From positions 1 through 23,053 of IMG/VR virus record IMGVR_UViG_3300035698_029555: a stretch of DNA of 23,053 nt; one strand, 5' to 3'. The stretch comes from a virus. A program made the position numbers and the translations under genes. Shown here one piece after another: positions 292-17,900 of this stretch. The notes beneath the pieces are model-generated. The model made no database searches, had not been told where the DNA came from, and saw only the letters and a list, made by a program, of their open reading frames with translations. Each line of letters begins with the position of its first letter. Positions within the stretch are counted from its first letter, which is position 1.

Positions 292-2439
292 ATGTCAGTA
301 AAAACTGGGAAGTTATATGTGGATGAAAGAGTTGATCTGGATGATAAAATCGAGGGATTGGTTGATAAGGCGATTCAAGGATTGGGAGATGTTGTTGAAG
401 AGAGACATATTTTATCCAGGAAAGAATTGGGAAGATTTATTGAACTGGTTGTGCATGTGGGAGGATTATTTTGTCCAGATGGATTTAGACCTTATCAGAA
501 GAAGTTTGCTAAGAGGGTAATTGAGTCAGTATTGTTAGAGGACACGGCTGAGATTACAGCTTTGTTTTCTCGCCAATCTGGTAAATGTTTAGGTAAAAAC
601 ACGCCCGTAATGCTGTTTGATGGATCTGTTAAATTGGTGCAAGATATTGTGGTTGGGGATCAGTTAATGGGGGATGAGGGAGAAGTTAGGAATGTATTAT
701 CTTTGGCCAGGGGACGTGAGCCACTATACAAGGTTGTGCCTAGATATAAATATGCTGATGCTTATGTGGTGAATGAAAGTCATATTTTATCTTTGATATA
801 TAAAGATGAAATTGTTGATATGAGTATGGATAATTATTTAGCATTATATGATAAAGAAAGTATGTATGGTTATCAGGTAATGACTAATGATAATTGTAAA
901 AGAATATATTATGAATTTGATGTTGAAAAGTTAGATGAGGGTGATTACTATGGTTTTACTATAGATGGTAATCATAGGTTTTTACTAGGTGATTTTACTG
1001 TTACTCATAATACGGAAACTATTGCTTGTATGGTTGTAGCGATGTGTATTCTTTTGCCTAAGTTTTCTGAATATAGTGAAGATTCTCGATTGCAAAAATT
1101 TAAGGATGGATTTTTTGTAGGTTTGTTTGCTCCGGTAGGTGGTCAGGCATTTATTACTTTTGACAGGATGCGGGTTAGAGTAAAGTCGAAAAAGGGTCGT
1201 GCTATTCTGGGTGATCCTGATATTGATATGGATCCTGAAATTTGTCATAATTTAAAGTTTCCTAATGATTCGAGTGTTACTACCCAGTCGGCGCATAGGT
1301 CAGCCCATATTGAAGGAAAGACTTTTCATTTAATTATTATTGAAGAGGCACAGGATGTAGAAGATTTTGTATTGAGAAAGTCGATTCATCCAATGGGTGC
1401 GGAAACTGCTGCAACTATAGTTAAGATAGGTACTTGTAATCCTCATAAGTCTGATTTCTTTGAGGCTATTCAGAGAAATAAGATAGAAATAATTCGGTAT
1501 CCTCGTAGAGTTTCTAATCATTTTGAGTTTGATTATAGATTTGCTGCAAAATACTCTCCGCGTTATAGAAAGTATATTAAGGCGGAGGTAAAAAGGTTAG
1601 GATTTGATTCAGATGAATTTAAGTTAGCTTATCGTTTAATTTGGATTTTAGAGAGAGGAATGTTTTTAACTGATGATGTTATTGATTATTGTGCAGATAA
1701 AACTCGTGAGATTTCTATAACAGATAGTATGTCTTATTGTATTGCAGCTTTTGATGTTGGGAAATTAAATGATAGTACTATATGTACTATTGGTCGGTAT
1801 GATATGAGTAAGCCAAAGGCGCTTACTAAAATGGATATTAGGTATCCAAAAGAAATATTAGCTTGGAAAGCTATGGTTGGAGATGACTATGTTGTTCAGG
1901 GTCAGGAATTTGGTGATTTTCTTGTTGATTATAATATACAATTATGTTTAGTTGACGTAACGGGTGCTGGAGAGGGTTTTTACGACATATTAAAACATAA
2001 ATTGAGACATCGGGTTCGTATGGTTAGAATTCATTTTGGAGGTAGTTCGGGAACTACTGACCGTATCAATCGCTATTATTTTCAGGAATGGCAATCTGGT
2101 CGGTTAAGGTATCCGGCTGGTGTCATAACTCGAAAAACGAGAGAATATAATGATTTTATATTTCAACATTCTTCAGCAGTAAAAGAATATAATGGTAAAT
2201 TTTTGAAGGTTCACGCCCCTGTTACAAAGTTAAGACAAAATTTAACAGAAAAATATCACGATGACTATGTATCAAGCGGAGGCCTATTTTGTTGGGCAGA
2301 ACAATGTGGATTTTTAACACAACTAGAAGTGTCTGTGGGTAATGTATTTAAGAAGACGACTGGTTTAGGTGTATATAAAACAATTTCACAAAATAAAAAT
2401 TCACAATTAAAACGAGCTTCTATGTCATTTTTTAAATAA
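292..2439 (+). CDS. terL: Terminase large subunit with in-frame mini-intein
   Basis: This is the packaging motor ATPase-nuclease, which cuts concatemeric phage DNA and pumps it through the portal. The 715-aa precursor contains a 142-residue intein (residues 99-240) inserted into Walker A. Removing it restores the contiguous P-loop SRQSGKTET and leaves a 573-aa terminase, a normal length for the family. Walker B is the hydrophobic strand LIII followed by Glu-Glu (E351-E352), and the coupling motif GTCNP is at 380-384. The RNase H-like nuclease domain shows acidic residues at D488 (AAFDVG), D555 (CLVDVTG) and D657-D658 (HDDYVS). The start at 292 follows AAAGGT and lies downstream of the TTGACA promoter. 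The portal gene follows. The terminase identity is very secure; the nuclease residue assignment is by motif recognition only. Confidence 0.96.
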   Translation: MSVKTGKLYVDERVDLDDKIEGLVDKAIQGLGDVVEERHILSRKELGRFIELVVHVGGLFCPDGFRPYQKKFAKRVIESVLLEDTAEITALFSRQSGKCLGKNTPVMLFDGSVKLVQDIVVGDQLMGDEGEVRNVLSLARGREPLYKVVPRYKYADAYVVNESHILSLIYKDEIVDMSMDNYLALYDKESMYGYQVMTNDNCKRIYYEFDVEKLDEGDYYGFTIDGNHRFLLGDFTVTHNTETIACMVVAMCILLPKFSEYSEDSRLQKFKDGFFVGLFAPVGGQAFITFDRMRVRVKSKKGRAILGDPDIDMDPEICHNLKFPNDSSVTTQSAHRSAHIEGKTFHLIIIEEAQDVEDFVLRKSIHPMGAETAATIVKIGTCNPHKSDFFEAIQRNKIEIIRYPRRVSNHFEFDYRFAAKYSPRYRKYIKAEVKRLGFDSDEFKLAYRLIWILERGMFLTDDVIDYCADKTREISITDSMSYCIAAFDVGKLNDSTICTIGRYDMSKPKALTKMDIRYPKEILAWKAMVGDDYVVQGQEFGDFLVDYNIQLCLVDVTGAGEGFYDILKHKLRHRVRMVRIHFGGSSGTTDRINRYYFQEWQSGRLRYPAGVITRKTREYNDFIFQHSSAVKEYNGKFLKVHAPVTKLRQNLTEKYHDDYVSSGGLFCWAEQCGFLTQLEVSVGNVFKKTTGLGVYKTISQNKNSQLKRASMSFFK
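586..1011 (+). other. Mini-intein in the terminase P-loop
   Basis: The segment encodes 142 residues from Cys1 (codon 586-588) to the terminal Asn (1009-1011). Block A begins CLGKNTPVML. Block B contains VVNESHILSL, with the expected His. The C-terminal blocks read YYGFTIDGNH and end FTVTHN, with the penultimate His and terminal Asn required for cyclisation. The first C-extein residue is Thr, an accepted nucleophile. Only about 65-70 residues separate blocks B and F, too few for a LAGLIDADG or HNH homing endonuclease. The N-extein ends exactly at the Walker A Lys (K98), so an unspliced precursor should not bind ATP normally. Intein identity is firm; splicing activity is inferred. Confidence 0.96.
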
Positions 2440-2504: not shown

Positions 2505-3938
2505 ATGGCTATAGAACTATTTCAATCACAAGTACCTTTAATAACGGATCAAAATTTTACGGGTTTAACAGACCCTAGAGTTTTGCACGCATTATTAAAG
2601 GATTATGGTACACCAGATCAACTTACCTATTTTAAGAAAGTTATAAATTACTGGAATTATTATTTAGGACAGCAGTGGCCTGGACAAACTGATGATACAT
2701 TGGTTATAAATTTATGTTCAGTTATTGTCGATTTATATACCCATTTTTTATATGGAAATCCTTTTTATACGGTGGCTCCTGATGAAAAAAGGGAATTAAA
2801 AAATGTAGTAGATGTTTTATGGAATAAAAATGATGAAGTAGTATTTGGATTAGAATTAGGTCAAATGGCTTCGGCTACAGGAGGGGCTTGGGTACGTATC
2901 GGAATTGGTCAGGATGATCTATCTAATATGAGTATTCCACAGGCTGATGTTCAACATACGGGAATGGTTCATGGAATTTGGTCTGGATCTAATACTAAAC
3001 GATTATTGAGAGTTAGTCATTATTATGTGGAATATCGAGAGACGGGGATATTAAAAAAGAAATATGAACCTTTTTTAATTCAGGAAATTTGGACTAAAGA
3101 TAGAGTAGAGATATATCACAATCAAAAGAGGGTTCATTCGGCTGTAAATCAATTTGGTGAAATACCTTATGAATATATTGCTAATATACCTTTAGCAGCT
3201 TCTAATATGGGTTTGAGTGATCTACATAATATCATTCCGTTACAAAATAAATTGAATGAAAAGATGGCTGTATTAGAAGATATTATTGATTATCAGGCGG
3301 AACCGGTTACTATTGTAAAAGGGGCCAGTATTGGGACGCTTGAAAGAGGGGCTGGAAAAATTTGGGGAAATTTACCTGTAGAAGCAGTAGTAGAAAACTT
3401 AACACTTGATACTGGTGCTATTGAACCTATTATGGACTATATTAAGTTGATAAGAGATTTTTTATGGTTGATTTCCAGTGTTACTAATACAACTGTGGGA
3501 GAGGTTGGAGGGATTAGTAATACCCCTGGTTCTACTATGGAAATGACTTTTCATCCTGTAATACGGCGAATTCAAATGAAAAGTCATGTACAGGCTCGTG
3601 GAATTAGACGAGTTCAGCGAAAAATGATTCGTATGTTAGAAATGATGACTGGAGAAACAATAGCAAAAGATGGGGATTATGATATTCCAGTTAAATTTGA
3701 GTATGGATTACCGAAGGATAAACTTAGAGAGATAACTATTGCTACACAAAAGATTACTACAGGGGTACTTAGTAGAGAAACTTATCTGGAAGAATCACCA
3801 GATACTGATAATGCAAAGGAAGAATTAGTAAAGATATTTAAGGAAATGGCGGTTATTTCAGAGGTTAAATCAGCTAATGAACCTAAAAAAGAGGTTATTT
3901 CTGATGAAAAGCTAAAAAATAAAGACGCTCAAAGATAA
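2505..3938 (+). CDS. Portal protein
   Basis: The product should form the dodecameric ring at one capsid vertex through which the terminase packages DNA and to which the tail connectors attach. The 477-aa length and the position directly after the large terminase fit the SPP1 gp6 / HK97-type portal superfamily. The protein opens with a helical, Tyr/Trp-rich region (YFKKVINYWNYYLG, about 42-55). A middle segment reads IPLQNKLNEKMAVLEDIIDYQ, the usual portal helix before the wing and stem. A basic helical region near 345-375 (VIRRIQMKSH, ARGIRRVQRK) precedes an acidic and lysine-rich tail. The start at 2505 follows AGGGA with suitable spacing. The call rests on fold-like pattern and synteny, not on a database match. 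Confidence 0.85.
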   Translation: MAIELFQSQVPLITDQNFTGLTDPRVLHALLKDYGTPDQLTYFKKVINYWNYYLGQQWPGQTDDTLVINLCSVIVDLYTHFLYGNPFYTVAPDEKRELKNVVDVLWNKNDEVVFGLELGQMASATGGAWVRIGIGQDDLSNMSIPQADVQHTGMVHGIWSGSNTKRLLRVSHYYVEYRETGILKKKYEPFLIQEIWTKDRVEIYHNQKRVHSAVNQFGEIPYEYIANIPLAASNMGLSDLHNIIPLQNKLNEKMAVLEDIIDYQAEPVTIVKGASIGTLERGAGKIWGNLPVEAVVENLTLDTGAIEPIMDYIKLIRDFLWLISSVTNTTVGEVGGISNTPGSTMEMTFHPVIRRIQMKSHVQARGIRRVQRKMIRMLEMMTGETIAKDGDYDIPVKFEYGLPKDKLREITIATQKITTGVLSRETYLEESPDTDNAKEELVKIFKEMAVISEVKSANEPKKEVISDEKLKNKDAQR

Positions 3939-7662: not shown

Positions 7663-7785
7663 ATGACTGTTATACTTTTACTAATTGGATTTGCTGCTAT
7701 ATGTATTGGAAATCCAGAAATTTTTACGAATCACTTAGCTCATTGGGTTCAAGATGAGTTATTAATTGATTCGGAAAATGAGTAA
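7663..7785 (+). CDS. 40-aa single-pass membrane peptide
   Basis: ATG at 7663 directly abuts the TAG of the preceding gene (7660-7662). The 40-codon frame encodes a hydrophobic N-terminus (VILLLIGFAAICIG, residues 3-16) followed by an amphipathic acidic tail. GGAGG lies a few bases upstream within the end of the preceding gene, and the last 8 bases overlap the next start (ATGAGTAA). The tight spacing on both sides supports a real gene. Cys14 is not in a proper lipobox, because the preceding residue is Ile. The function is unknown; with its neighbour it forms a small membrane-protein pair. Confidence 0.55.
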   Translation: MTVILLLIGFAAICIGNPEIFTNHLAHWVQDELLIDSENE

Positions 7786-8029
7786 AAAATTTTTATTAGA
7801 TATAGCTAAAGCGGCACAAGATAAACAACGGGTAAAAATTAGTTATTTAAATAAAGCTGGTAAAAAAATTAAAAGAAATATTGCCGCTTATGAATATGAT
7901 GGAAAGTATCTGTGGGCAACTGATACTATTCATGGTAGAAAACATATTCATAGTTTTAAGGCCAATATGATTCAAAGTGCTAATGTAGTTAAGCGAAAAT
8001 TTATACCTCAATGGGAAATTAAATTTTAA
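7778..8029 (+). CDS. Small WYL-domain-like protein
   Basis: The 83-aa product resembles an isolated WYL-type beta domain: VKISYLNKAGKK (19-30), a strand with YEYDGKYLWATD (38-49), then HIHSFKANMI (56-65) and the ending FIPQWEIKF (75-83). This Y-x-Y / YLWA / hSF / F-P-x-W-x-x-x-F progression matches short phage WYL-like proteins I know by pattern. WYL domains are ligand- or nucleic-acid-binding regulatory modules; here there is no attached helix-turn-helix. An in-frame TTG lies at 7766, but the ATG at 7778 overlaps the preceding stop and is preferred. Its placement within a structural operon, next to membrane proteins, leaves its role open. Confidence 0.55.
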   Translation: MSKKFLLDIAKAAQDKQRVKISYLNKAGKKIKRNIAAYEYDGKYLWATDTIHGRKHIHSFKANMIQSANVVKRKFIPQWEIKF

Positions 8030-13098: not shown

Positions 13099-13680
13099 AT
13101 GCCAGTTATTGAAGTAGAGATGCCGGATGTACTAAAAATGTTACATCCTGAAGAATGTGAAGACGTAATTGTTATTGGAAAAAAAGCGTATAAACTATAC
13201 CCTTTAACAGAGGGTCAAGTTGAAAAAGTTGCGGCTATTGCCAGTGATGTAATGCTAACTTTGTTTCCAAAAGATATGATAGGATCGGGAGAATTTAAAC
13301 TCGATACTCAAGGTTTAATAAAGGCTTTTTTTAATGTATTAATTAAAGAAAATCGAATTGCTGGAGTAATTGCCGAAGTTACTGGATTAACTAAAGAATT
13401 GATTTCTGAAGAAGCAACCTTACCTCAAATATTTCATCTGGCTTCAGTTATTTATAAAACCAATTTTAATCGGAAATCTTTACCAGAAACTACGGTAAAA
13501 AACTTCGAGGGCCTGCTGAATCTAAAAGAACAACCAGTGGGCAAAACGACGGAGCAAAAGTTCATCGAGGAAATGGTAGAGACAATGCAAGAGATGACAA
13601 CGACACCACAAAAGAAGATCGACGATGTGTTAGAAAATCTGAAGCAAACTTGGCCCTCGCAGGTGTCTACGAACGACTAG
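13099..13680 (+). CDS. Tail assembly chaperone, short (G-like) product
   Basis: The 193-aa product is the zero-frame form of a two-part tail assembly chaperone, which in siphoviruses binds the tape-measure protein and recruits tube subunits. The N-terminal part includes VEMPDVLKMLHP and a KLYPLTEGQVEKVA segment, then a helical region through about 130. A canonical slippery heptamer A AAA AAC falls at 13497-13503 in the correct phase (codons AAA 13498, AAC 13501). After it, the zero frame continues for another 58 residues (FEGLLNLKEQ onward, Glu/Met/Thr-rich), ending at TAG 13678-13680. TTTGGAG lies before the ATG. The gene sits directly upstream of tape measure, as expected. Confidence 0.8.
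   Translation: MPVIEVEMPDVLKMLHPEECEDVIVIGKKAYKLYPLTEGQVEKVAAIASDVMLTLFPKDMIGSGEFKLDTQGLIKAFFNVLIKENRIAGVIAEVTGLTKELISEEATLPQIFHLASVIYKTNFNRKSLPETTVKNFEGLLNLKEQPVGKTTEQKFIEEMVETMQEMTTTPQKKIDDVLENLKQTWPSQVSTND
13497..13503 (+). promoter_or_regulatory. -1 ribosomal frameshift slippery site (A AAA AAC)
   Basis: The heptamer AAAAAAC obeys X XXY YYZ with codons AAA (13498-13500) and AAC (13501-13503) in the chaperone reading frame. The -1 frame has a stop at 13467-13469 and is then open through 14516, so slippage here gives a continuous fusion. I did not find an unambiguous stimulatory hairpin downstream by eye, although the downstream 180 bases are unusually GC-rich. Confidence 0.8.
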
Positions 13681-14516
13681 TTAAAGATTATGGTTGGACC
13701 AGAGAATATATAAATGGTCAATGGAATTGGGTTTGTGAATTAACTGGAAATCGTTGTTGTAAGGGATTTTCAGATATGTGTAGTAGAGCTAATTGTTATG
13801 GACCAGAACAATATATTGATTTAGAATTACGAAAAAAAGCATTGGGTGGATATGCACGGCCTATTTTATATGGTTTAACTCGCCCAATGTTTTTAATGTA
13901 TTGGAGCATTGCTCAAAAGAGACAATTAGATGATTTAAATATTGAAATGAAATTACATGGTATTGATCCAGATGGAGATGGAAATAAAGATACTCTTACT
14001 AAAAAAGACGCGAAAGATTTTTTAGATGATCCTTTTAAGGATTTTCCTAATGATGTAGACTACTCTTCTTTTACTGATGAATTTATTGATAAACAAATAA
14101 AGTATTATGAATCGGTACAAAAAGCGTATCAAAAGAAAAATATATCTATTCCTAATACTATAAATTTGTGGACAAAGGAAAGGGTTGCCGCTTTTCGGAG
14201 TGGTGATGTGCTTTTGAAACGTGTTTCAATAAACTTTATTTTATGGAGTATGTATCGTGAATTAGTCAATAAAGGTGTTAAAGTCGATCAAGTATTGGTT
14301 TTAAAACTACTTCGTTGGAATTGGACTCGATATCAATTATATCCTAATAGTTCAAATATTGAAGAATATAAAAAAGGGAAAACCGCAAATGAAATAAAAA
14401 ATATAAAAATAGTAAGTTATGAAGATGATCCTCCAAAGTGGTTTATTCAAAAATTACATGATGAGGGACGTTTGGATAGCATATTAGCTAAAATAAGAGA
14501 AATATTAAATGGCTAA
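13503..14516 (+). CDS. Tail assembly chaperone, frameshift (T-like) extension
   Basis: This frame lies in the -1 register of the chaperone gene and has no ribosome site. After slippage at 13497-13503 the fusion reads VKN then LRGPAESKR, a polar linker to about 13650, then VYERLVKDYGWTREYINGQW, typical of chaperone C-terminal extensions. The shared 135 residues plus 337 residues give a fusion of about 472 aa. The T part has a cysteine-rich stretch (CELTGNRCCKG, MCSRANC), an aspartate-rich segment with DPDGDGNKD resembling an EF-hand loop, and a helical C-terminus. It is longer than usual for such extensions. It overlaps the tape-measure start by 8 bases. Translation only by frameshift is inferred. 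Confidence 0.75.
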   Translation, partial: LRGPAESKRTTSGQNDGAKVHRGNGRDNARDDNDTTKEDRRCVRKSEANLALAGVYERLVKDYGWTREYINGQWNWVCELTGNRCCKGFSDMCSRANCYGPEQYIDLELRKKALGGYARPILYGLTRPMFLMYWSIAQKRQLDDLNIEMKLHGIDPDGDGNKDTLTKKDAKDFLDDPFKDFPNDVDYSSFTDEFIDKQIKYYESVQKAYQKKNISIPNTINLWTKERVAAFRSGDVLLKRVSINFILWSMYRELVNKGVKVDQVLVLKLLRWNWTRYQLYPNSSNIEEYKKGKTANEIKNIKIVSYEDDPPKWFIQKLHDEGRLDSILAKIREILNG

Positions 14517-14904
14517 AGTAGTAATAGAATTTGGGACAAAAGGAGAAGGGGATGTTCTTGCTTCTTTGAAAAAAATGGTTGATTCCATTGAAAAGGGGCA
14601 AGCGGCAGTTGTAAAGTCTTCGGATAGATTATCGGGGAAATTAAAGGGACTTAAAGGGGCCTTTGATGCCCGAACATTTCATCATTTCAGTAGTCGAATG
14701 CAGGATTTAGGTCGTGGTCTATGGTATCTTAGTAGATCAGTGGCTAATGTTACACGTCTTTTTATACGATTTGGAGCCACTCTTTTAAAAATAACTACCG
14801 GTTTCGCAGTAGTGGGGGTTATGTCTTTAACTGGTTTAATTATTGCACTTGGAAAAGCAGTTGGAACTACTGGTACTCAATTTGAAATGTTGCGTAATAA
14901 TTAG
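14509..14904 (+). CDS. Tape measure protein, N-terminal fragment
   Basis: This 131-aa frame is the start of the tape-measure protein, whose length sets tail length and which enters the cell during DNA delivery. It begins with MAKVVIEFGTKGEGDVLASL, a usual tape-measure opening, followed by a helical basic region (SDRLSGKLKGLKGAF), and a hydrophobic stretch (about 93-121, TTGFAVVGVMSLTGLIIALG). It ends ALGKAVGTTGTQFEMLRNN, and in intact homologues the text after GTQFEML continues directly. It stops at TAG 14902-14904, and the next frame carries on as if the protein were intact. The start overlaps the chaperone stop by 8 bases. I treat it as one broken gene with the following entry. Confidence 0.75.
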   Translation: MAKVVIEFGTKGEGDVLASLKKMVDSIEKGQAAVVKSSDRLSGKLKGLKGAFDARTFHHFSSRMQDLGRGLWYLSRSVANVTRLFIRFGATLLKITTGFAVVGVMSLTGLIIALGKAVGTTGTQFEMLRNN

Positions 14905-14909
14905 CAACA

Positions 14910-17900
14910 TTGTATAAAGATGAGATATTAGCTTTAGAAAAGCTTGAATGGGCTAAAAAATTTGCTGCAAAAACTCCATTTGAAGTATTAGAAGTTGTTG
15001 ATGCTTTAGCTTCATTTAAAGCATTAGGAATTGAAGCTGATAAATTAGATCGACATGGTAGAACTTTGCTTGAAAATGCAGCGGATTTAGCTGGTGGATT
15101 AAGTAAGTCTATTAATGAAACTAATTTTGCTTTACGAAAAGCAATTTCCAGTAATTTTTGGATGTCTATGCAGCGTAATCTTGGTATTACCAAAGAGAAA
15201 ATTGCTGATTTTTATCTATCTCTTGAAGGAAAAAGTGCTGATTTAGAATCGGTTAAAGGTAGAATTGATGCAATTTCTACTTATATAAATGCTAAATTTG
15301 CCGGTGGCATGGAAAAGATGTCCAGAACTCTAACTGGTTATATATCTAATATAAAAGATCAATGGACCAATTTTTTAGACGATATTGCTAATACTGGATA
15401 TTTTGATTCTCTTAAAGCAATTTTTAAAGAGGTACTTGACTTTTTAGACGAGATGTCTGAAAAGGGAATTACAGCAGTTTGGGCAAAAGAATTGGGTGTT
15501 TTCTTAACTGATGTAGTAGATAAAATGAGGGAATTTGTTGGTTTGTTAATGGAAGGAACCGATATTAGATTTTCTCTTGGAACTAATTTAAAAGTTGTTA
15601 TAAATAATTTAGGAACATTTATTCGAGATGTAATTCCTAATATTATTAGTTTTATATTTGACCAGTTTTATACTCTGTTACCTATAATACAAGATATTTT
15701 TTCAGAGATTATGAAAAATATTGAAAGTATTATAGCCGATTCTGCTTTTGTTAATGCTTGGAATAAATTAAAAGTAGCTACTAGTGAAATGTGGAAAGAA
15801 TTAAATAAACCAAAAGTCGCAAAACAATTGGTATTCTTTTTTGAAAAATTAGTTGATGTTGTTAGTACAATGGTAGTTCCAGCATTAAAGTTTTTCTTAA
15901 CAGTAATGAATGGTTTGTTATGGATATTGGATTTAGTTGGTCCTAAATTAGCTATTTTTCTTCTTTTGTTACCTAAGATAGCTATGGGTATTGCAGGTAT
16001 AGGAAGATTAGCAAGAAATTTTGTTGATTTAGGACTTGCAATTAGAGGAGTCGGTGCTGCTTTAGCTTATTTACAAGGTGGTTTAGTTACATTAATGGGG
16101 AAAGTAGGTTTAGGTGGAGTTGTTACAGCATTATTTCAGTTTAAGACTTCTGTAAAAATTGCGTTTGTTGCCGCAGCAAAGGCAGTAGGCGGTTTTGGTC
16201 CTCTTATTTTAGGTATGGTTGCAGCAATAGGTGTTTTGGTTTATTCAATTAAAACAATAATTGAAAAATGGAAAGCTTTAAGAGGACATGTAGTTACTGC
16301 GGAAGAAAGAATTCAAAATGCTATTGATCGTAAAAATAAGTCTTTAGAAAAAACTATTACATTACACAAAGACCTTTCTAATATTAATCGTTTAGGTATA
16401 AAAATTGCCTTATCAAGAACTGGTGAAGGTTCTTCAGTATTAAATAGAGCTAGAGATTCTAAAAAAATACAAATAGCTGAAGAAGCGGCTCGACAAGCTA
16501 AATTAGATCTTTATACTCTTATGGAAAAAGTAAGTATTGATTCAAAAGCAACTTCTTATGCTCATGCACCAGGTGGTATGGGTGGTGGTATGGGTGGTAT
16601 GTATATGGCCACACCTCTTAATGCAGCAACTATCGAAATTAATAAAGAAGAAGCAGCAATTAAAAAAATGCAAGATCGACTTAGAATTCAAAAACAAAAA
16701 TATGAAGATAAATATGGAAAAAAGTATGGTGGTGAATATAAACCTGAAACTATGAAAGAACGTTTAGCTGAACAAGGTCCAGATACTGCTTCTCAAAAAT
16801 TAAGAGATATAGAACAGGAAATTTTAGAAATTCGTGTTAGAGGGGGTAAAGTTCAAGGAGATCAATTAACTAAAATAAGAAATGAATTAGAACTTACTCA
16901 AGGACTTGAATGGTTAGGAGCAAAACGAGTAACAATTTTTGAAAAAATTGACAAAATTGCTAAAAGTATTAATATAACTCTTAAAAGACAAGAAGTAACT
17001 ATAGAAGGAGTTACTTCAGCATTGGGTAGTCAAAAAGCAGCTTGGGAAAAAATATATAAAACAATTTCGGGTATTAAAAGTAAAATGGAAGGATTGATGA
17101 GTGCTAGATGGAGTATTACCGATCAAGCATCTTCATTAAGAGATAATCTTGATATAGCTTTAAAAAATCTAAAAGAATATCATAAAACTATTCGTTCTAT
17201 TTTTAGAAATGAAGCTCGTGTACAAGAAGCTCAAAAAGGTGGATTCCTTGAATTAGCTTCAAAACGTCAACATGATATTATTACTCAAAAAACTTCTTTA
17301 GTTGATACATTAATGGGAATTAAGGATAAATTAGTTGGAACAAAAGAAGGTGAATACAAAGATCGTACTACTGATAGATTAGAAAGAAAAAAATTAGAAA
17401 CTGAATGGACAGGGATTGCAAAAACCTTGGATATTGAAGGTTCTTTAACACAAGTAATTAAAACATTAGCAACAGGCACAGAAGTTGATATAACTAGACT
17501 TGATACTATGAATAAGGAATTATTAAATCGAAATTTAGTTGAACAACGAAAACAGGAAATTTTATTAGCTAAACAAGTAGTTGAGTTAGAAAAAATCGTA
17601 GCAGCTTTAGATGTATTAAAAGGTGAGTATGGAGTTGTAGAACCACAATTTGGTAAAAGACAACAAGGTTCATTAGGTGGAACATTAGAGCTTTTAAATT
17701 TAGTAAAACAACAAGCTGAAATGATGGTAGCAACAGGTGGTGGTCAAACTAAAGTCCCTAAATTATCTTTTCCAACAAAAAGACAGAATGTTTTTGATGA
17801 CCCTTATAATATCAGTGGTTCTACTGAATCAATAAATAATTCCAATTTATTAAAGGATCTTTTAACTAATAATGTATATAATGCAGGAGTTACCAAAATT

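Follow-up and report, generated by a model that had tools for sequence, protein, structure and literature searches.

A predicted class 1 mini-intein between the Walker A lysine and threonine of a phage large terminase

We found that the large terminase gene of an uncultured phage is interrupted, within the codons for its ATP-binding loop, by an in-frame insert that has the hallmarks of a genuine class 1 HINT mini-intein and is predicted to splice. The gene lies in an IMG/VR virus record of 23,053 bases (the window, by which we mean this whole stretch of DNA), probably a fragment of the phage genome. We put a probability of about 93% on the reading that a class 1 mini-intein of a phage GK/T family (here and below, the slash marks the insertion bond) interrupts the terminase ATPase, that autocatalytic splicing yields the active 573-aa protein, and that the element is the endonuclease-stripped descendant of a homing intein.

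The terminase precursor is encoded on the plus strand at positions 292–2439 and is 715 aa long. The insert (586–1011, plus strand) consists of 142 codons, in frame and without a stop, corresponding to precursor residues 99–240. It runs from Cys1 to Asn142, beginning with CLGKNTPVMLFDG and ending with GDFTVTHN before TET, and interrupts the bond between Lys98 and Thr241 in the Walker A motif, SRQSGK/TET. The N-extein (292–585, plus strand; terminase residues 1–98) ends with the Walker A residues SRQSGK (568–585). The C-extein (1012–2439, plus strand) starts with the Walker A Thr, the +1 residue (1012–1014), and is supported by conserved alignment columns, TerL PHROGs, and tblastn. Annotated relatives lack the interruption: the motif reads SRQSGKTET in Streptomyces phage pSt2308 and SRQSGKSE in two gut phages. 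A preliminary description of this DNA had placed a mini-intein at exactly this Lys/Thr position, and the comparison with relatives agrees; its coordinates, codon counts, and lengths of 573 and 715 aa were reproduced exactly.

The identity of the insert is supported by profile and sequence matches. Pfam Hom_end_hint (PF05203) matched it with 85.2 bits (E = 8.4e-24), and the nearest solved chains by sequence in phmmer were PI-SceI (E = 4.5e-15) and the Prp8 inteins (E about 5e-10). Furthermore, a profile of the intein family matched PI-SceI at 1.3e-43, with the NESH of block B lying over NATH of PI-SceI. The only NCBIfam match, a weak one, was to a radical SAM model that contains an intein. All four of the intein blocks named in the preliminary description were located on the plus strand by alignment with relatives: block A (CLGKNTPVMLFDG, 586–624), in which Cys1 would be the first nucleophile; block B (YVVNESHILSL, 763–795); block F (DYYGFTIDGNHRFLL, 943–987); and block G (GDFTVTHN, 988–1011), with His141 and Asn142. 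Across the alignment of 24 related inteins, Cys1, Asn63, His66, His141, and Asn142 are invariant. The insert carries the features of a class 1 intein, namely Cys1, the block B Asn63-E-S-His66, His141-Asn142, and a +1 Thr, and Thr is an accepted +1 nucleophile in intein chemistry.

The structure prediction proposed in the preliminary description also pointed to an intein. Folded alone, the 142 residues gave a pLDDT of 33, and the alignment of 24 inteins was required for a confident model. With it, AlphaFold predicted a HINT fold at a mean pLDDT of 95.9, and this predicted fold superimposed on the VMA1 and Prp8 inteins with a Z of about 22.6 and an rmsd of 1.3–1.4 Å over 136–140 residues.

Could the insert be an intein that has decayed and can no longer splice, in a terminase without function that stems from a defective virus or an assembly artefact? 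The window is a metagenomic fragment that has a repeated 49-base unit at its left end and a tape-measure gene whose frame changes, both of which fit such an origin. However, all of the splice residues are intact, the frame is open, and the terminase motifs are conserved. The third-position GC of the intein (0.232) also equals that of the extein (0.237), which is consistent with long residence. We regard decay as extremely improbable.

The host gene was called a packaging ATPase in the preliminary description, and several lines of evidence uphold this. TerL PHROGs matched the 715-aa precursor (PHROG TerL 6e-5), and the C-extein alone aligned in tblastn with Streptomyces phage terminases over 89–95% of its length (E down to 3e-57), as well as with unannotated homologs in one Bacteroides phage and one gut phage. 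When the joined terminases were aligned with relatives, Walker A, Walker B, and the acidic nuclease residues were kept at 32–33% identity; Walker B is LIIIEEAQD (1330–1356, plus strand) in the C-extein, and the RNase H-like nuclease part follows downstream. In Pfam, Terminase_6N was absent at E ≤ 1 from the listing of the insert-bearing precursor. On the rejoined extein, which is 573 aa long after removal of the insert, it appeared at E = 2.9e-4 (21.0 bits vs. a curated cut-off of 22), together with Terminase_6C (14.9 bits vs. a cut-off of 22.6). Terminase_1 was not among the Pfam matches of the precursor or the rejoined extein, for which only the Terminase_6N/6C type was listed. The portal protein gene directly 3′ of the terminase (2505–3938, plus strand; Pfam SPP1_portal 7.3e-31; PHROG 64 2e-38) supports the terminase call, and the major capsid gene also lies downstream. 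On these sequence grounds, the product of 292–2439 is the large terminase subunit, apparently of a Terminase_6-like kind.

Splicing is predicted to follow the usual class 1 route. The 715-aa precursor would fold its HINT domain, Cys1 would undergo an N–S acyl shift, and the N-extein would be passed to the +1 Thr, which is the Walker A Thr itself. Asn142 would then cyclise with the help of His141, and the exteins would join as SRQSGKTET to give the active 573-aa terminase. An intact P-loop would thus exist only after splicing. Since the insert lies inside Walker A, we infer that ATP binding depends on splicing and that the precursor is inactive.

The insert, as the preliminary description had it, contains no homing endonuclease: Pfam found no such domain in the 142 residues and found Hom_end and LAGLIDADG_3 in the inteins of four related loci (L046, L070, L104, and L125). 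From the alignment with L046 and L070 and the Pfam matches on relatives, a short linker (877–909, plus strand) occupies the place where these relatives carry the LAGLIDADG endonuclease domain. It is conceivable that the intein is still mobile in trans, with an endonuclease supplied from another locus of the phage or by its host, as the endonuclease-bearing alleles that relatives have at this bond could cut empty ones in mixed infections. On the other hand, no homing endonuclease was recognised by Pfam or PHROGs in the other window ORFs scanned, a weak argument in an incomplete fragment. On balance, we consider continued mobility in trans improbable. According to the preferred reading, the ancestor would have been an endonuclease-bearing homing intein whose LAGLIDADG domain was lost, either in the terminase gene or before reaching it. 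The remaining mini-intein would persist without needing a function because its removal from the essential Walker A motif would have to be exact; an imprecise deletion would destroy the motif.

To place this intein among related alleles, we collected terminase relatives with alignment queries, in IMG/VR as well as in bacterial and archaeal genomes; a single-sequence query, the rejoined terminase, gave no matches in IMG/VR. Among the 91 relatives obtained (L004–L094, including three annotated phage relatives), 88 have no insert at Walker A, a count biased towards empty sites since the uninterrupted motif was one of the two scan patterns. At exactly this bond, L046 and L070 have homologous 334-aa inteins that include a LAGLIDADG endonuclease. 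In the remaining relative (L049), the same Walker A codon is interrupted by 298 bases with an early stop. An intein-directed scan added three loci of the same terminase family and bond, one with an endonuclease-bearing intein of 336 aa (L104) and two with mini-inteins of 138 aa (L095 and L096), as well as inteins in a more distant terminase family (L125/L126). Pfam did not find Hom_end or LAGLIDADG_3 in the L095 and L096 inteins. The comparison of relatives suggested in the preliminary description has yielded empty, endonuclease-bearing, and mini alleles.

In a quick terminase tree, the states of the site are interleaved (6 changes, with at least 4 forced for "empty"), a pattern that mobile elements would be expected to give. 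The three mini-bearing terminases (the window, L095, and L096) are not neighbours on this tree, in which the window terminase forms a long, deep branch of unsure placement. The allelic series favours ordinary endonuclease loss followed by fixation, and the window intein resembles the last stage of an ordinary homing cycle, stripped of its endonuclease.

Might the intein instead be a timer or sensor, retained in an endonuclease-free form because slow or condition-gated splicing sets the start of packaging? If so, the splicing rate, perhaps condition-dependent, would set the time of motor activation. The insert sits in the ATP-binding loop, homing does not explain the persistence of an intein that lacks an endonuclease, and mini-inteins recur at the same terminase codon (the window, L095, and L096), as if kept for use. 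Furthermore, conditional splicing has been reported for other inteins (PMC6195587). However, 88 of the 91 terminase relatives do without an intein, no sensor is indicated by the sequence, and the five terminase inteins tested in one study spliced readily, although the TerL1-a class was not among them (PMC5050341). We consider this regulatory role very improbable. The preliminary description had offered fixation, reliance on another endonuclease, and a packaging timer side by side; fixation is the option that the allelic series favours, and we found nothing that supports the timer.

Other elements occur at this Walker A codon and further along the terminase gene. The insert in L049 (314–611) matched the Rfam group I intron model with 27.7 bits (E = 3.5e-5), below the curated 50, and Rfam at the gathering threshold reported nothing in L049, L046, or L070. 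A close relative of L049 (L019) is empty at this codon. The insert is, judging by that match, a probable group I intron, so that inteins as well as a group I intron seem to have inserted at the same Walker A codon. Large second inteins occur after Walker B in four terminases of the same family (L004, 3728–6445; L005, 3725–6448; L095; and L096). Their sites are A/T of SIEPMLSA/TGG in L004, SIHPMAAAC..VHN/TAG in L095 and L096, and a neighbouring site in L005.

From the 80 loci of the intein-directed scan, about 60 distinct members of a single intein family were obtained, almost all at GK/T of P-loop proteins, many of which are helicases. Most are 330–355 aa long, and the minis are 138–158 aa. 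A tree of the splicing domains (109 columns) placed the window intein with L097 and helicase inteins, apart from the other terminase inteins; a single clade of terminase Walker A inteins was not rejected (AU p = 0.317). The grouping with inteins of other P-loop proteins suggests that the endonuclease may have gone before entry into the terminase. A limited literature search, which is not proof of absence, found no published description of a GK/T intein family across many phage genes. A 139-aa mini-intein-like insert is also present in Ruegeria phage vB_RpoS-V18 (L176, 3001–3417), in a gene with a tail tape measure protein annotation and at a site that is not a Walker A motif; the same match occurs in other Ruegeria phage records.

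Several other features of the window deserve mention. At its left end (1–95), a 49-base unit is repeated almost twice in identical copies, possibly a contig-end assembly artefact. Between the capsid and tail genes, a small ORF (7766–8029) matched a WYL domain below the threshold (16.4 bits, E = 0.009). Ahead of the tape-measure gene, two ORFs (13099–13680 and 13650–14516) overlap in different frames, an arrangement that resembles tail assembly chaperone frameshift pairs; neither PHROGs nor Pfam gave a match in support of a chaperone reading. In the tape-measure gene (14509–14910), the frame changes at about 14900, with a stop after FEMLRNN, and another frame continues. This would be accounted for by a frameshift or by an indel of one base near AATAATTAG.

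Among these relatives, a single codon of an essential phage gene is either uninterrupted or occupied by a full homing intein, a mini-intein, or a probable group I intron. Such a natural allele series is suited to asking when mini-inteins persist, whether inteins move from the Walker A motif of one gene to that of an unrelated gene, and whether packaging is ever limited by splicing. It also carries a warning for annotation, as intein-bearing terminases get missed or split in profile searches.

How does this intein compare with known systems? Mycobacteriophages have terminase inteins at seven sites, one of which, TerL1-a, separates the invariant Lys from the nucleophilic Thr (PMC5050341). Five representatives, none from the TerL1-a class, splice readily, two mycobacteriophage terminase inteins cut intein-free alleles, and the packaging motor was argued to be unlikely to assemble before splicing (PMC5050341). 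TerL1-a provides the precedent that the preliminary description had invoked and matches the window intein in gene and bond, whereas its host is a Terminase_1 protein (PMC5050341) and the window host is Terminase_6-like. As Pfam lists Terminase_6N/6C and no Terminase_1 for the window host, we do not file the window intein as TerL1-a. Mycobacterium was not among the named groups in the tblastn tally, so that the sequence of the window intein looks unrelated to TerL1-a at that sensitivity.

Closer likenesses are found among uncultured phages. The inteins of L046, L070, and L104 share with the window intein the terminase family, the bond, and homologous splicing blocks at 42–52% identity, but they are 334–336 aa long and include the LAGLIDADG domain that the window intein lacks. 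Those of L095 and L096 occupy the same bond, are likewise free of an endonuclease at 138 aa, and are 43–44% identical to it, although both terminases carry the second, large downstream intein. The cultured Vibrio phage 13VV501A (OQ622096, L175) has a 147-aa mini-intein of the same family at Walker A Lys/Thr, in a P-loop/helicase protein rather than a terminase. Helicase inteins of Salmonella, Klebsiella, and Vibrio phages also belong to this family and lie at the Lys/Thr bond, most of them with an endonuclease-sized insert. The closest solved folds to the window model, VMA1 (PI-SceI) and the fungal Prp8 inteins, are about 29% identical over the aligned HINT core; they reside in eukaryotic host proteins, and PI-SceI carries an endonuclease, unlike the window intein. 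The Walker A site and the splicing logic are thus already known, and Lys/Thr terminase inteins have been published (PMC5050341). What is new is this phage, the Terminase_6-like host at the site, and the mini version beside endonuclease-bearing alleles in relatives.
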